NCBI RefSeq assembly: GCF_003002895.1
Contig: NZ_PVTI01000023.1
Coordinates: 1 to 64,000 of the forward strand
Length of the DNA stretch: 64,000 bases
Reading direction: 5' to 3'
From: Knoellia remsis
GTDB lineage: Bacteria; Actinomycetota; Actinomycetes; Actinomycetales; Dermatophilaceae
In this document: positions 8,793 to 38,956 of the stretch, piece after piece
Position numbering within the stretch: position 1 is the stretch's first letter
How the letters are laid out: each line of letters begins with the position of its first letter
Notes under the pieces: generated by a model
Databases searched by the model: none
Told to the model about the DNA's origin: nothing
What the model saw: only the letters and a program-made list of their open reading frames with translations
Made by a program: the position numbers and the translations under genes

Positions 8793-9179
8793 ATGCCGAT
8801 CCCCCAGGTCGTGACCCGCTTCAACAAGGCTGTCGGCAACAAGGTGCTCATCCACCTCGCCGGCCTCGGGCCGTTCGTCGAGCTCGAGCACGTCGGTCGG
8901 AAGTCCGGCAAGACCTATCGCATCCCGCTCAACGCGTTCCGCCACGGCGACGTCGTGACCTTGGCGCTCACCTATGGGCCGAAGGTCGACTGGTACCGCA
9001 ATGTCGTTGCGGCACAAGGCTGCCGCATCCGGATGGGTGACGAGATCCTCACCCTGGGTGCGCCCCGCACGATCTCGACAGCGGAGGGGATGCGGCGTAT
9101 GCCGTTCGTCGCGCGGCCGATCTTACGCACCGCGAACGTCACCGACTTCGTCGAGCTCCCCGTCGTGTCGCGCGACTGA
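8793..9179 (+). CDS. Nitroreductase/quinone reductase family protein (deazaflavin-type split barrel)
   Basis: 128 residues. The pattern LEHVGRKSGKTYRIPLNAF, then VVTLALTYGPKVDWYRNVVA and CRIRMG matches the Ddn/DUF385 split-barrel family, whose members use F420H2 or related flavins in actinobacteria. Substrate unknown. The start follows a leaderless -10. Its TGA stop lies inside the first ACTGATTGC copy of the 32-bp repeat array that separates it from the convergent kdd gene. Confidence 0.8.
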   Translation: MPIPQVVTRFNKAVGNKVLIHLAGLGPFVELEHVGRKSGKTYRIPLNAFRHGDVVTLALTYGPKVDWYRNVVAAQGCRIRMGDEILTLGAPRTISTAEGMRRMPFVARPILRTANVTDFVELPVVSRD

Positions 9180-9330
9180 TTGCCCGTTCTGGTCGCTGCG
9201 TGCCAGCGCTGGCCGACCACAACGGGCAATCAGTCGGCCGGGCTACGGCCACAACGGGCAATCAGTCGAGCGGCCCACTGCCAGAACGGGCAATCAGTCG
9301 GCCGACCCACCGCCCGAACGGGCAATCAGT
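9174..9330. repeat. 32-bp tandem array with ACTGATTGC ends, between convergent genes
   Basis: AACGGGCAATCAGT starts at 9221, 9253, 9285 and 9317, an exact 32-base period with variable 17-18-base spacers. One inverted copy (ACTGATTGCCCGTTCTGG) opens the array at 9175 and can pair with any of the four, best with the third. The stop codons of both flanking genes (TGA 9177-9179 plus; TGA 9328-9326 minus) fall inside the outermost ACTGATTGC copies. Probably a bidirectional terminator-like or dispersed element; too few and too imperfect for CRISPR. Confidence 0.9.
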
Positions 9331-10453
9331 GGGATGACAGGCGGGACTCGAAGAGGCGGCGCACCTCCGCATTGCCGCGCAGGAGGTCGAGCGCGTATGC
9401 CGCGTGGCCGGGGACGTAGCCGTTGCCGACGAGCATCGTGACGTCGGCGGCGAGCCCTTCGGCCCCGAGTGCTGCGGCGGCGAAGTTCGTCGCCATCGAG
9501 AAGAAGATGACCGTGCCACCCTCGGCGGTCGCGAGGATCGCGGGCTGCTCGGCCCCGGTGACGTCGACGCAGACGACGGTGAGATCGGCCGGACCGCCCA
9601 CGGGGACAAGGGATTCCACGAGGGCGAGCGGGTGGCGGGCGTCGGCGACCACGATGTGCGTTGCGAGCCCGGTGCCTTCGAGCAGCGCCGCCTCGGCGTC
9701 GTCACGCACGACCGCGACACGACGGGTCGCGCCGGCGTCGGCGGCCGCGGCCAGCGACAGCGACCCGGACTTGCCCGCGCCCCCCAGGACCACGACCGAC
9801 GGCGCGCCGTCCTCGGAACCCGCGCGGCCGGCATACGAGCGGACGGTGCGCGAGACGAGCGCGGGTGCGCCGCAGACGTCCATCACCATGAGCGCGAGCT
9901 CGGGTGCCAGGTCGTCCGGCAGCACTGCCGCGATGGAGCGGCCGAAGAGGATCGCGTGGCCGCGGGCGGGCACCCGCTCCCCCAGGCCGTCCCAGCCCTC
10001 GAGGCCGTCAGTGATGGCGAGCGGGGTGAGTGACAGGGAGACGAGCGTGGCGACGCGGTCACCGACGGACAGGCCGAGGTCGGACTGCGGGCCAACCTCC
10101 GCGACGGTGCCGATGAGCATGCCGCCGCTGCCGGTGACGGGGTTCTGCATCTTGCCGCGGGTCGCGACGATGTCGAGGACCTCGGCGCGGATCGCGGCGC
10201 CGTCGCCGGAGTGCTTGTCGTGGAGCTGGCGATAGGACGCGGCGTCGAGATTGAGGGTCTCGACGTCGATGCGCACCTCGTCCGGCCACAGCTCGGGGCG
10301 GGTGTCGAGCACCCTCGCGGCCTGCGGGAGTGACTCCCCCGCGGGCTCGAGGACGCGGTGCACACCGAAGGGCGAGGACGCAGCAGACGGCGACGACGCG
10401 CCGCGAGGTGACGTCGCAGCGGACGGCGAGGCGGGCGGCATACCCGAAGACAT
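9326..10453 (-). CDS. kdd: L-erythro-3,5-diaminohexanoate dehydrogenase
   Basis: 375 residues. An MDR-like fold with a Rossmann segment SVVVLGGAGKSGSLSLAAAADAG that binds the pyridine nucleotide. Family blocks NLDAASYRQLHDKHSGDG, IVATRGKMQNPVTGSGGMLIGTV and FFSMATNFAAAALGAEG are conserved in Kdd of lysine fermenters. It oxidises 3,5-diaminohexanoate to 5-amino-3-oxohexanoate and ammonia. ATG 10453 is chosen for an ACAGGAGAA ribosome site seven bases upstream. A low-complexity Ala/Ser/Pro stretch follows the start. Divergent from kamA over 89 bases, so the two are probably co-regulated. Confidence 0.92.
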   Translation of the reverse strand: MSSGMPPASPSAATSPRGASSPSAASSPFGVHRVLEPAGESLPQAARVLDTRPELWPDEVRIDVETLNLDAASYRQLHDKHSGDGAAIRAEVLDIVATRGKMQNPVTGSGGMLIGTVAEVGPQSDLGLSVGDRVATLVSLSLTPLAITDGLEGWDGLGERVPARGHAILFGRSIAAVLPDDLAPELALMVMDVCGAPALVSRTVRSYAGRAGSEDGAPSVVVLGGAGKSGSLSLAAAADAGATRRVAVVRDDAEAALLEGTGLATHIVVADARHPLALVESLVPVGGPADLTVVCVDVTGAEQPAILATAEGGTVIFFSMATNFAAAALGAEGLAADVTMLVGNGYVPGHAAYALDLLRGNAEVRRLFESRLSSH

Positions 10454-13057: not shown

Positions 13058-13139
13058 ACTGATTGCCGATTCCGTTCACCCCGCTCCCCACTGATTGCCG
13101 AATCCGTTCGGCCCTAGCGCACGGAGCCAGCAATCAGTC
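13058..13139. repeat. Second ACTGATTGC repeat, 32-bp spacing
   Basis: ACTGATTGCCGATTCCGTTC at 13058 and ACTGATTGCCGAATCCGTTC at 13090 are 32 bases apart, the same period as at 9.2 kb. An inverted GCAATCAGT follows near 13130. Three CGGCATAC copies lie just downstream (13198, 13220, 13256). The region 13001-13290 has no gene. Confidence 0.85.
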
Positions 13140-24205: not shown

Positions 24206-25510
24206 GTGATGCAGTGGCGCGAGGGCGAGATCATCCGTGCGGTCCGGGAGTGGCCGGGGGCGGTCGAGTATGCCGTCCGCCTCCGTTCCGCTCCTCCCTC
24301 ACCGTCCGCTGACCCCACCTCCCCTCCCCGACTGATTGCGCAGGATTCGCAGGCGAGCGCCAGCGAGGATGCGAACCCTGCGCAATCAGACGCTGAAACC
24401 GGCCAAGCCAGGGAAGGCAGCGAGGTGCGCGCGCTGGCATACACCGCGATGGTGGGCCGTCCGGAGCTTGGCGACCGGGTCGTGCTCAACGCATCGGCGC
24501 TGCTCAAGGGTCTCGGCACCGGTGGGCTGGCGTTCGTCGTCGCGGTGCCGGACCGGTTGCCCGCCGACCCGCCGCCGAGCGAGGGGCACATCGTCAAGGC
24601 GCGCTACACGCCCCAGCAGCAGATGTTCCTCGCTGTCGACGAGCAGGACAGCCCGCACCACGCAACCCTGCGCGAGGCCGACTCCCTCGACGGCATGCCC
24701 GTCGTCGTCGCCGACCTGCACTCGGCACTGCCGGCGGTGGTGGCCGGGGTGCGTCTGGCGCGTCCCGACGCCCGGGTCGCCTATGTCATGACCGACGGCG
24801 GCGCGCTGCCGATCGCGTTCTCGCGCGCGGTGGCCGGCCTCAAGGACGCGGGGTGGCTCGCTGAAACGGTCACGGTGGGGCAGGCGTTCGGCGGTGACCA
24901 CGAAGCGGTGTCGCTGCACAGCGGGCTGCTCGCGGCGCGGCACGTCGTGGATGCTGACGTCGTCGTCGTCGCCCAGGGCCCGGGCAACGTCGGGACGGGG
25001 ACACCCTGGGGCTACTCCGGTGTCGCCGCAGCCGACGCGTTGCATGCCGTGCACGTCCTCGGCGGGACGGGCATCGCGTCCCTGCGCGTCTCGGGAGCCG
25101 ACCCCAGACCGCGGCACCGCGGGATCTCTCACCACAGCACGACGGCATACGGCAAGGCACTGCTCTCCCCCGCCCTGGTGCCGGTCCCCGCGCCGGGGCT
25201 GCAGGCCGCGCAGGCGCCGGAGCCCATGCACGAGCCGGAGCCCGCGCACGAGCCGGCCGGTGATCCGGTGACGGGTGTGGGGCGGAGAGGTGACGAGCTC
25301 TATGCGCTGGTGCGCGAGCAGGCGCGTGACTTGGCCGAGTCGTCACGAGCCGAGCTGGAGGTCGTCGAGGTCGGGACGGACGGGGTGCTCGACGCGCTGC
25401 GCGGCTCGCCGGTGGGGCTGTCGACGATGGGCCGCAGCCTCGACGAGGACCCGGCGCCGTTCGTCGCCGCTGCAGTGGCGGGCATCCTGGCCGCGGAGCG
25501 CGCTGACTGA
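24206..25510 (+). CDS. DUF3866 family protein with an in-frame palindromic insertion
   Basis: 434 residues starting M-M-Q-W-R-E-G-E-I. Conserved blocks: EIIRAVREWPGAVEYAV, LAYTAMVGRPELGDRVVLNASALLKGLGTGGLAFVVA, GTPWGYSGVAAADALHAVHVLGG and PRHRGISHHSTTAYGKALL. Function unknown; it is commonly near paf genes. Between YAVRLR and EVRALAYTA about 45 extra Ser/Ala/Pro-rich residues (SADPTSPPRLIAQDSQASAS...) come from the ACTGATTGC palindrome at 24331-24390 and a GTATGCCG copy. A second repeat (EPxPAHEPA) is near residue 335. Confidence 0.82.
   Translation: MMQWREGEIIRAVREWPGAVEYAVRLRSAPPSPSADPTSPPRLIAQDSQASASEDANPAQSDAETGQAREGSEVRALAYTAMVGRPELGDRVVLNASALLKGLGTGGLAFVVAVPDRLPADPPPSEGHIVKARYTPQQQMFLAVDEQDSPHHATLREADSLDGMPVVVADLHSALPAVVAGVRLARPDARVAYVMTDGGALPIAFSRAVAGLKDAGWLAETVTVGQAFGGDHEAVSLHSGLLAARHVVDADVVVVAQGPGNVGTGTPWGYSGVAAADALHAVHVLGGTGIASLRVSGADPRPRHRGISHHSTTAYGKALLSPALVPVPAPGLQAAQAPEPMHEPEPAHEPAGDPVTGVGRRGDELYALVREQARDLAESSRAELEVVEVGTDGVLDALRGSPVGLSTMGRSLDEDPAPFVAAAVAGILAAERAD
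24331..24390. repeat. ACTGATTGC palindrome inside the DUF3866 gene
   Basis: CTGATTGCGCAGGATTCGCA at 24332-24351 pairs with the complementary arm at about 24370-24389 (one mismatch). The 60-base element keeps the reading frame open. Same end motif as the intergenic elements at 9.2, 13.1 and 29.4 kb. Confidence 0.9.
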
Positions 25511-29404: not shown

Positions 29405-29469
29405 CGACTGATTGCGACTTCGCAGAGTGAGGAGCGCCGCGACGAACTCTGCGAAGTCGCAATCAGTCG
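29405..29469. terminator. Perfect 24-bp ACTGATTGC palindrome after the peroxiredoxin gene
   Basis: Arms 29405-29428 and 29446-29469 are exact complements with a 17-base loop. The ends are CGACTGATTGC and GCAATCAGTCG. It starts four bases past the peroxiredoxin stop, so it may end transcription, but no T run follows. Confidence 0.85.
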
Positions 29470-36066: not shown

Positions 36067-36415
36067 GGTGGGACGGTTCGTTCCGGTGCTGCTCGACGTC
36101 GTGGCCGTCGTGGTGTTCGCTGTGGTGGGGCGGCGCTCGCACGCGGAGGGGCTGACGCTGAGTGGCGTGCTGCAGACGGCCGGGCCGTTCCTCGTGGGGA
36201 CGGCGGCGGGTTGGCTGCTCGCGTCGGTGACCTTGGACGTCTCGCCGCGGTCGTGGCAGTTCGGTGTCGTCGTCGTGGCGGCGACCGTCGTGGTCGGGAT
36301 GCTGCTGCGTCGGCTGGCCGCGGCCGGCACGGCGCCGTCGTTCATCGTCGTGGCGACGGTGTTCCTCGCGGTGACGATGCTCGGCTGGCGCCTGCTCGCC
36401 CGCCTCGTCAACTGA
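36059..36415 (+). CDS. DUF3054 family membrane protein
   Basis: 118 residues with four hydrophobic segments (VPVLLDVVAVVVFAVVGR, GPFLVGTAAGWLLA, FGVVVVAATVVVGMLL, FIVVATVFLAVTMLGW). The opening (RxxxVLLDVVAVVVFAxxGRRSHAEG) is typical of DUF3054. Function unknown. GTG 36059 overlaps the end of the previous gene; GTG 36068, just after that stop, is an equally good start. Confidence 0.82.
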   Translation: MVEVGRFVPVLLDVVAVVVFAVVGRRSHAEGLTLSGVLQTAGPFLVGTAAGWLLASVTLDVSPRSWQFGVVVVAATVVVGMLLRRLAAAGTAPSFIVVATVFLAVTMLGWRLLARLVN

Positions 36416-36451
36416 CGTGACCAGCTTCGTCGCCTGTCGTTGCCCTCTCCG

Positions 36452-37051
36452 TCAGCTGAGGGGTACCCCCGGACCGTCGTAGCCCCACGCGGCCGCATCC
36501 TCGTGTGGCCCGAGGCGAACCGGAGCACCGACGAGAAGGTGGATGCGCGCGCCAGCGACGAGCAGGTCCATGGACTCGACCGCAGGTGCCAGAACGACAC
36601 CAATGAACAGGGTCGAGTCCACGCCTTCGCTGCCATCCGCGACGTCGCCGTAGAGTCGTGGCTCGCTCGCTCCGGTCCCGGCGATGAGGGTGAGTACCTT
36701 CTCGAGGTTCTCGGTCAACCGCCGCCCGATCGGCCCCGGGAACCGGTCGTCGACCAAAGCCGCTCCACCAGCCTCCCGGGTGTTCCTCAGGCTCCATTCG
36801 AGTTCATACCCGCACACGGCGACGAGTCGCTCCAGCGCGGCGACCGTCGGCTGTTGACGCCCCGACTCGTAGCGCGCGACCACCCCCTGTGTCACCCCGG
36901 CGCGCTCGGCGAGCTCATCCTGGCTGAGCCGCTGAAGTCGGCGCGCACGGCGCAGCACGTCGCGCGCGGTGCTCGATGCGTTGGGGCGAGACGTGCGCGG
37001 TGCTCCGAGGCGAGAAGTGCCACGTGGGCCCTGATGCGCTGCGGGAGTCAT
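36452..37051 (-). CDS. XRE-family HTH regulator with a C-terminal nucleotidyltransferase-like segment
   Basis: 199 residues. After a 28-residue lead, the HTH is DVLRRARRLQRLSQDELAERAGVTQGVVARYESGRQQPTVAALERLV. The remainder (PRLYGDVADGSEGVDSTLFIGVVL) recalls the G-S-x-A-R-G-x-x-x-x-x-S-D-x-D of minimal nucleotidyltransferases, but the catalytic residues are not conserved, so it is at most a degenerate domain. Such fusions occur in toxin-antitoxin-like loci. The ATG follows CAGTCT by six bases. A 41-bp palindrome lies 121 bases upstream. Confidence 0.75.
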   Translation of the reverse strand: MTPAAHQGPRGTSRLGAPRTSRPNASSTARDVLRRARRLQRLSQDELAERAGVTQGVVARYESGRQQPTVAALERLVAVCGYELEWSLRNTREAGGAALVDDRFPGPIGRRLTENLEKVLTLIAGTGASEPRLYGDVADGSEGVDSTLFIGVVLAPAVESMDLLVAGARIHLLVGAPVRLGPHEDAAAWGYDGPGVPLS

Positions 37052-37063
37052 GGGTCAAGACTG
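37052..37063 (-). promoter_or_regulatory. Possible leaderless -10 of the XRE gene
   Basis: CAGTCT (relaxed), six-base gap, ATG 37051. Confidence 0.3.
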
Positions 37064-37171
37064 CTCGACACGACCAGTTTCGCCGCCGACTTTTCCACAG
37101 CCAGCTGCCGACCGACCCTGACGACCACGGGGGGCACAGCTCGCTCGACCTCCACACGCCCCTCTTGGACC

Positions 37172-37212
37172 CATGGCCTATAGGTACGCAATCTACGTAT
37201 CTATAGGCCATG
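37172..37212. promoter_or_regulatory. AT-rich nested palindrome upstream of the XRE gene
   Basis: CATGGCCTATAG (37172-37183) and CTATAGGCCATG (37201-37212) are perfect arms. Inside, TACG...CGTA repeats the symmetry. It is by far the most AT-rich short region nearby. Probably an operator or promoter; it contains several TATA-like hexamers on both strands. Confidence 0.55.
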
Positions 37213-37291
37213 CGTCTGGAGAGCGGACATGTCGATTCACCTGGCCGCCCGCTGACGGCCTGGTCGGCGCGGGCTCGGACGGGGCTACGGC

Positions 37292-38956
37292 CTAGAGATA
37301 CTGGCCGGTGTTGGCGATGTTGGCGATGGACCGGCCGGGCTCGTTGCCCTCCTTGGTCTTGATGAGGGTGCGGATGTAGACGATCCGCTCCCCCTTCTTG
37401 CCGGAGATGCGCGCCCAGTCGTCGGGGTTGGTCGTGTTAGGCAGGTCCTCGTTCTCCTTGAACTCGTCGACGAGGCTCTGCAGCAGGTGGTCGACCCGCA
37501 GACCCCGCTGACCGGTCGTCAGCAGGTCCTTGATCGCCATCTTCTTCGCCCGGTCGACGATGTTCTGGATCATCGCGCCGGAGTTGAAGTCCTTGAAGTA
37601 CAGGACCTCCTTGTCCCCACCGGCGTACGTGACCTCGAGGAACTCGTTCTCCGCGTCCTCGGCATACATGCGCGTCACGACGGCCTCGGTCATCGCCTCG
37701 ACCGTCGCCTCCGGTGACCCGCCGTTCTCGGCGAGGTCCTCGGGGTGCAGTGGGAGGTCGGCGGTGAGGTACTTGCCGAAGATCTCCGTCGCGGCCTCGG
37801 CGTCGGGCCGCTCGATCTTGATCTTCACGTCGAGCCGGCCGGGGCGCAGGATCGCGGGGTCGATCATGTCCTCGCGGTTCGAGGCGCCGATGACGATGAC
37901 GTTCTCGAGGCCCTCGACTCCGTCGATCTCGGACAGCAGCTGCGGCACGATCGTCGTCTCGACGTCCGACGAGACCCCCGAGCCGCGGGTGCGGAACAGC
38001 GAGTCCATCTCGTCGAAGAACACGACGACGGGCAGGCCCTCGTTGGACTTCTCCCGCGCCCGCTGGAAGATCAGCCGGATGTGCCGCTCGGTCTCCCCGA
38101 CGTACTTGTTGAGCAGCTCGGGTCCCTTGATGTTGAGGAAGTAGCTCTTGCCGGGCTCACGGCCCTCCTTCTCCGCGATCTTGCGCGAGAGCGACGCAGC
38201 CACGGCCTTGGCGATCATCGTCTTGCCGCAGCCGGGCGGGCCGTAGAGGAGCACTCCCTTCGGCGGCTTGAGGTGGTGCTCGGTGAACAGGTCCGGGTGC
38301 AGGTAGGGCAGCTCGACGGCGTCGCGGATGAGCTCGATCTGCCCCGACAGCCCACCGATGTCCTGGTAGTCGATGTCCGGGACCTCCTCGAGGACGAGGT
38401 CGGCGACCTCGGCCTTCGGGATCTGCTCGTAGACGAAGGCGCTGCGCGGCTCCATGAGCAGCGCATCCCCGACGCGCAGGTGCACGTCCGCGAGCGAAGC
38501 GGCCACCCGGCATACGCGCTCCTCGTCGGCGCGCGACAGCACGAGGACGCGGTCCTCGCCCAGCAGCTCCTTGAGCAGCACGACCTCGCCCGCGCGCTCC
38601 CACCCGTGGACAGCGACGACATTCATCGCCTCGTTGAGCATGACCTCGCGGCCGACCTCGATCTCGTGCGGCTCGATCGTCGGGCTCACCGCGACGTGCA
38701 TCTTGCGACCGCCGGTGAGGACGTCGACGGTCTTGTCGTCGAACGTCTCGACAACGACGCCGTACCCGGACGGCGGCTGGCCGAGGCGGTCGACCTCGGT
38801 CTTGAGGGTGACGATCTGCTCGCGGGCGTCCTTGAGGGTGCGCACGAGGCGCTCGTTCTGGGCCGAGACGGTGCCGAGCTGCGAGCGCAGGTCGGTCACG
38901 GTGTCCTCGAGGCGGCGCACGGCACCACTCTCGCCGGGCGGTGGGGTCTGGCTCAT
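37292..38956 (-). CDS. mpa: Proteasome-associated ATPase Mpa/ARC
   Basis: 554 residues. An N-terminal coiled coil ([47 protein letters not shown]) binds Pup. Two OB domains follow, then the AAA domain: GPPGCGKT (Walker A), [11 protein letters not shown] (Walker B), and [18 protein letters not shown] (sensor/arginine fingers). The protein ends in GQYL, the motif that opens the PrcA gate. ATG 38956 has AGGAGG seven bases before it. A TAGCGT that uses the trmI stop may be its promoter. Confidence 0.97.

Follow-up and report, generated by a model that had tools for sequence, protein, structure and literature searches.

Dispersed palindromic units in Knoellia, with an in-frame copy in a DUF3866 gene and a candidate nuclease partner gene

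A 60-bp palindrome lies in frame within a DUF3866 protein gene of Knoellia remsis and is one copy of a short paired unit that is dispersed through the genome; units of the same kind are found on both sides of a gene encoding a predicted nuclease (referred to as the partner gene). These components probably form a two-part system resembling REP/REPIN, in which the predicted nuclease is the partner of the units and the DUF3866 copy is one in-frame REPIN-like insertion. The 64-kb stretch of K. remsis DNA analysed as a whole is referred to as the window, and was compared with the remainder of the genome and with eight congeners (G001 to G008).

The DUF3866 insertion and other in-frame copies

The element (24331..24390, + strand) is an inverted pair of units: the head ACTGATTGC at 24331-24339 is followed by a stem, a loop with GCGAGCGCCAGCGAG, the partner arm, and the inverted partner head GCAATCAGA at 24382-24390 with one mismatch. 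The inner arms also pair, with small mismatches. The host gene (24209..25510, + strand) encodes 433 amino acids, and its frame is open throughout the element, which is read as residues 41-61. The product was assigned to DUF3866 (PF12982, E 4e-123) by a Pfam match starting at residue 74, i.e. past the insert. The proposal in the initial annotation that a palindrome is located in frame inside such a gene was confirmed. The same source had described an insert of roughly 45 residues between conserved blocks; the gap between VEYAV.L and EVR.LAY was 46 residues in K. remsis (24284..24421, + strand) and 8 residues in each of the eight congeners. Among the nine Knoellia genomes, the insert was confined to K. 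remsis: in the orthologue alignment suggested earlier, it was absent from 8/8 congeners, and the orthologues did not all share identical residues at this place. Most simply, the insertion occurred in a length-variable stretch after K. remsis had split from the eight congeners.

The element itself accounts for about 20 of the 46 insert residues, and the remainder corresponds to a C-rich linker and flank; the C-rich stretch ahead of the head is similar to linkers ahead of heads elsewhere. Two intergenic copies in K. remsis (L029:1624-1683 and L174:1572-1631) have arms similar to those of the DUF3866 copy, and their loop, GCGAGCGCCAGCGAG, is identical. CGCTGA flanks the insert on either side, a possible duplication that may also be due to chance. 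No clean target duplication was found in the DUF3866 comparison or in that of the hydratase described below, for both of which the congeners are too diverged.

If the start site were wrong or the gene broken, with translation beginning downstream of the element, the insert would lie outside the protein, and a codon model did score the insert negatively and place the gene start at 24425. On the other hand, codons 1-25, ahead of the insert, are conserved in 8/8 congeners and score positively, and the frame is open throughout, so that we consider this explanation very unlikely.

The search for the element in other protein genes, also suggested in the initial annotation, revealed three more K. remsis ORFs with in-frame units. 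When 91 K. remsis clusters were scanned with a loosened head, using an open frame with coding-like sequence on both sides as the criterion, three clear tandem arrays were obtained (L015, L214, and L182), giving four in-frame cases in this species: one pair (DUF3866) and three arrays. The first array is located in AtuA, between its two domains (PF07287, residues 5-430, and PF23544, residues 483-587), the second follows GADLGDVGVSG in an enoyl-CoA hydratase (PF00378), and the third lies in an unnamed ORF with no match in Pfam. All are translated as GNQSG..ANGI-like repeats of 11 residues each. The comparison with congeners covered the DUF3866 and hydratase cases; the hydratase array was missing in 8/8 congeners, and a relative in PDB (3p5m_A) is contiguous at the array site. 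In-frame copies in metabolic enzymes show a route from repeat to protein sequence.

Among spacings of 31-33 nt, those of the in-gene arrays were 33 nt in 6/6 cases versus 6/49 elsewhere; this period is no proof of selection because the arrays were found by their open frame, and the same scan would miss arrays that disrupt the frame of their gene. The count excludes ORFs in L181 and L202, the weakly scoring L203, lone head-like matches in L180, L303, and L321, and the second frame of L214. In G005, the same scan of 46 clusters yielded no array and two lone head-like matches.

A dispersed family of head-and-stem units

The K. remsis genome (3.57 Mb, 62 contigs) contains 213 exact copies of ACTGATTGC; the reversed pattern does not occur. 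Counts of this head were 8-213 in the nine Knoellia genomes (only 8 in G005), 28-38 in three genomes from another genus, and at most 17 in the remaining genomes of the 149 surveyed; among the matches listed, many of those outside Knoellia look unrelated. From 86 K. remsis clusters, examined in 58 stretches around matches and in the loci from the searches (199 distinct heads out of 213), the unit was defined as a 9-base head (ACT[G/T]NNTGC in Knoellia) and a stem of ~12 bases, which occurs in several types: GCACAGTTCG in 53 of the 199 heads, CGATTCCGTT in 24, CGATTCCGTG and CCGTTCTGGT in 9 each, and CGGTTCCCGG and GACTTCGCAG in 7 each.

Units are arranged as inverted dimers (64 pairs in K. remsis loci with the loosened head, and 21 in G005 loci) and as tandem arrays, in which the commonest period is 32 nt (34/81 spacings of up to 60 nt) and an inverted partner is often absent. 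The two arms of a pair covary: 490/572 cells were paired in K. remsis (52 distinct arm pairs, positions 10-20) versus a mean of 275 and a maximum of 357 in 2000 shuffles, and 163/176 cells in G005 (16 arm pairs) versus a mean of 138 and a maximum of 154, in counts that treat related copies as separate rather than as independent events. Pairing is not kept at head position 4 in K. remsis (32/52).

In the window, all 11 exact copies of the 9-mer ACTGATTGC are at 9.2, 13.1, 24.3, and 29.4 kb, and 16 copies were found with at most one mismatch, whereas 100 shuffles gave 5.1 on average and 11 at most. The initial annotation had noted common ends among the elements at these four places, and this holds for the heads and the layout, while the inner arms differ. 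The element at 9175..9330, between convergent genes, comprises one inverted pair and three further inverted units with a 32-nt period, and the TGA within its outer heads is the predicted stop of both neighbours (8793-9179, + strand; 9326-10363, - strand). The intergenic element at 13058..13138 has two units in tandem, spaced at 32 nt, and one inverted unit; no unit was found at the corresponding place in the stretches inspected from six congeners. The inverted pair at 29407..29467, just past a stop codon, has the stem GACTTCGC, which is also the stem adjoining the partner gene of G007. At the equivalent place, a hairpin with an unrelated stem and the head ACTTCTTGC or ACTTATTGC is found in G003, G005, G007, and G002; G008, G004, and G006 carry a different hairpin with a CGTATGCCG-type start, and G001 carries neither.

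A separate octamer, GTATGCCG, occurs 73 times on both strands of the 64-kb window versus 1.0 expected from dinucleotide shuffles (e.g. 24268-24275 and 9395-9402), and also begins intergenic hairpins in G008, G004, and G006; a Chi-, KOPS-, or methylation-like role is possible.

According to a home-made gene caller, units mostly sit shortly 3' of stop codons. The 86 cluster sites were distributed between convergent genes (31), tandem genes (36), and divergent genes (9), within a called ORF (5), and at edges (5). A head lies no more than 90 nt from 85 K. remsis gene ends; of these, 26 take the TGA inside ACTGATTGC as their stop, 57 stop 3-83 nt ahead of the head, and two run into or past it. In G005, 44/46 gene ends precede the head, 43/46 of them by 2-27 nt. 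A preference of the units for the stop codon itself was weakened as an explanation by G005, because its head has no TGA and these 43 gene ends lie 2-27 nt ahead of the head; perhaps flush insertions survive only if the head supplies a stop.

The location of most units at gene ends (26 and 57 of 85 in K. remsis; 44/46 in G005), the covarying arms, and the hairpin kept at the 29.4-kb place in four congeners despite an unrelated stem are also the features of host-owned 3'-end hairpins, i.e. terminators or protectors of mRNA 3' ends under selection, among which the partner gene would lie by chance and the in-gene copies would be recombination accidents. However, no TTTT was present within 12 nt past any of the 126 K. 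remsis and 42 G005 pair ends, and the form of an intrinsic terminator (a G+C-rich hairpin and then a T-run) was therefore not seen at these ends. Tandem arrays often without an inverted partner, three arrays and one pair within open coding frames, a copy number varying from 8 to 213 among congeners, and the sharing of units with the flanks of the partner gene also argue against host hairpins, which we judge to be an unlikely origin.

The candidate partner gene and its protein

At 36411..37292, the place of the partner gene in four congeners, the window has another ORF, and the last bases of the gene upstream, at 36415, are ACTGA. G003, G004, G006, and G007 carry an extra gene between inverted units at this place; neither the window nor G008 or G002 has the gene with its units there, and the G001 and G005 stretches contained no exact unit. 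Each of the nine Knoellia genomes has one or two partner genes, amounting to 12 close homologues (profile row >230 bits). Units were present on both sides in 11/11 close homologues with both flanks in sequence; the partner gene of G008, at a contig edge, has units on the one available flank. The close homologue of K. remsis (C3:100424-101479) is accompanied by three direct and two inverted units with the stem CGATTCCGTT. The heads beside partner genes were ACTGATTGC, ACTTATTGC, ACTTCTTGC, ACTTCGTGC, and ACTTTGTGC, and the stems differ. The longest inverted repeat common to both flanks was at least 17 nt in 9/11 partner genes versus 1/183 control genes (Fisher 6e-13), the controls being from one region of nine genomes and many of them orthologous to each other; one close homologue, L246, was not significant in the flank-repeat test (p 0.13). 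The second G003 copy (L246/L253; G003:C4:51511-52565) is split, apparently by a frameshift, and still has units on both sides.

The partner protein has ~355 amino acids with an AbiEi-like start and a conserved E..D..ExD..K pattern. E205, D238, E249, D251, and K255 are invariant in 11 partner sequences, as are four cysteines (C322, C324, C325, and C332). AbiEi_4 was detected by Pfam in 3/11 members (best E 2e-6), the K. remsis member being below the cut-off, and the putative nuclease domain had no match in Pfam (11 members), NCBIfam (two members), or PDB sequences. The invariant residues, together with known family patterns, suggest that the protein begins with a winged helix and is a PD-(D/E)XK-like nuclease. 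A viral origin of the partner was rejected, as a scan of viral contigs contained no relative, and comparison with plasmids gave one weak partial match (a Collinsella record).

The association between gene and units extends to their sequence in G005. In a test set beforehand, this genome, in which the partner gene has the head ACTTCGTGC, contained 160 copies of ACTTCGTGCCC versus 1-14 in the other eight, and in 40 stretches its commonest dispersed stem, CCCGCACGGACA, was the stem beside its own partner gene. On the other hand, G008 has ACTTCGTGC at its partner gene and yet only 11 copies of the 11-mer ACTTCGTGCCC, which does not fit head specificity. The commonest stem of K. remsis, GCACAGTTCG (53/199), has no matching partner gene, since the close homologue carries CGATTCCGTT and the flanks of seven distant homologues contained no GCACAGTTCG-type units; the DUF3866 copy is thus matched by stem to no resident gene.

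In the mechanism that we propose, the partner protein would recognise the head and stem and nick or cut at units or targets, and repair would copy the units elsewhere, as a rule to the 3' ends of genes, where they may do little harm, and rarely in frame into genes. Mobilisation by the partner is the leading step of this proposal, and we infer it, together with nuclease activity, unit recognition, and target choice. With head and stem legible in the gene flanks, repeats that have a predicted nuclease as their partner offer directly testable protein-DNA pairs.

The finding that gene and units are at different places in different species, and that in several other genera apparent phosphate-transport genes often stand on both sides of the gene, would also be consistent with a homing-endonuclease-like or addiction-like selfish gene; the units would be its sites, multiplied when cuts are repaired, and not transposable elements. 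However, up to about two hundred units coexist with the gene in one genome, a number not compatible with a plain cutter unless cutting has a further requirement, and we regard this explanation as rather improbable.

The terminal inverted structure of the units, their dispersal, and their absence at orthologous places resemble non-autonomous MITEs of an ordinary IS with a DDE or HUH transposase that has since been lost from K. remsis. However, conserved heads with variable inner arms, tandem arrays of single units, and the lack of a Y1 transposase match in the K. remsis genome argue against MITEs. The genes found between inverted units were the nuclease-like ones, from which the search began, and no parent IS with unit ends was seen among the loci examined. 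This origin appears highly improbable. RAYT, the candidate engine of REPINs, was rejected as the partner: PF01797 (RAYT/Y1 transposase) had no match in the K. remsis genome, and 5/14 control genomes were matched.

Relation to known repeats and wider distribution

GTAG and CGTC REPs, REPtrons, and TIRtrons have been described (PMC3733652, in a text from which the word Actinobacteria is absent), and REPINs have been counted among the most common repeat families of bacteria (PMC8049555). Like REP/REPIN with RAYT (PMC3733652), the Knoellia units are short dispersed tagged palindromes, many opposed, mostly 3' of genes with some inside, and accompanied by a repeat-flanked partner gene. They share with this kind a high-copy, short, paired and mostly extragenic unit, inverted dimers, and a partner gene with cognate flanking repeats. 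They differ in the tag (ACT[G/T]NNTGC heads instead of GTAG or CGTC), in the partner (an AbiEi-like, predicted PD-(D/E)XK protein instead of a Y1 (HUH) transposase, PF01797 having no match in K. remsis), in tandem arrays with a ~32-nt period, and in heads and stems that vary between species. CGTC REPs (PMC3733652) are likewise dispersed palindromes with a tag that do not flank a transposase gene, although they have another tag, have mainly been reported from alpha-proteobacteria and apparently have no dedicated transposase, whereas the Knoellia units have a candidate partner. TIRtrons (PMC3733652) also have a gene between inverted repeats, some of them dispersed, and differ in the enzyme superfamily.

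The initial annotation had compared the DUF3866 copy with Rickettsia palindromic elements (RPE), of ~150 bp, with ten families and 44 integrations in Rickettsia conorii (PMC10969869). The likeness holds in that palindromic repeats are present in frame in unrelated protein genes, here in a conserved gene and in further ORFs. Membership of RPE does not: the Knoellia units are 60-bp pairs or arrays of 33-nt units, with four in-frame cases, in another phylum, mostly placed shortly 3' of stop codons, and with a candidate partner gene. RPE may thus be taken as the right analogy rather than as the class to which the units belong, and REP/REPIN as the closer known kind. Because, among the papers listed in an open-access literature search, none was seen to report palindromes of this type from Knoellia or a protein of this kind as the partner of REP-like repeats, the Knoellia system is referred to as a new form of the REP kind.

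The partner profile matched 56/186 genomes of the family at E 1e-40 and, at E 1e-30, 4/396 genomes phylum-wide, including K. remsis and one other of its family. In other genera, the partner gene was near palindromes with related heads, e.g. ACTTATTGC, ACTTGTTGC, and ACTTCTGGCC (13 loci inspected out of 21, L271-L291). At L283, the two sequence displays cover a single stretch. An ACT[G/T] hairpin was present in a flank in 13/23 loci (21 from other genera and two of other families) versus 7/181 controls, two of the 13 (L280 and L288) possibly by chance; the same count finds only 2/12 Knoellia partner genes, the units of which mostly form arrays. The flank-repeat test, with crude gene boundaries, reached p 0.01 in 8/22 loci of other genera, 10/11 close, and 10/17 distant Knoellia loci.

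The assumption that flanking inverted repeats are restricted to the close subgroup proved wrong, because distant paralogues are often flanked by inverted repeats too, of other sequence: a flank inverted repeat of at least 17 nt was found in 7/17 distant Knoellia paralogues versus 1/183 controls (Fisher 7e-8). It is possible, as a tentative extension of the REP/REPIN-like reading, that a large actinobacterial AbiEi-like, PD-(D/E)XK-like family, represented by several divergent paralogues in each genome, drives REP-like repeats alongside RAYTs; each lineage would amplify its own gene-flanking palindrome and sometimes seed in-frame peptide repeats, with the ACTGATTGC units and the DUF3866 insertion as one case of many.

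Inverted repeats of 14 to 30 nt on both flanks, unrelated in sequence and some alike across species, were observed at the distant paralogues of the partner gene in L248, L250, L257, L258, L260, L262, L263, and L264. Several contigs of the Calditrichia MAG T11 (L075, L090, L091, L095, L096, and L098) carry a dispersed double palindrome of another kind, located around CTGACTGATTGCTATCAGTCAG and GACTGATAGCAATCAGTC.
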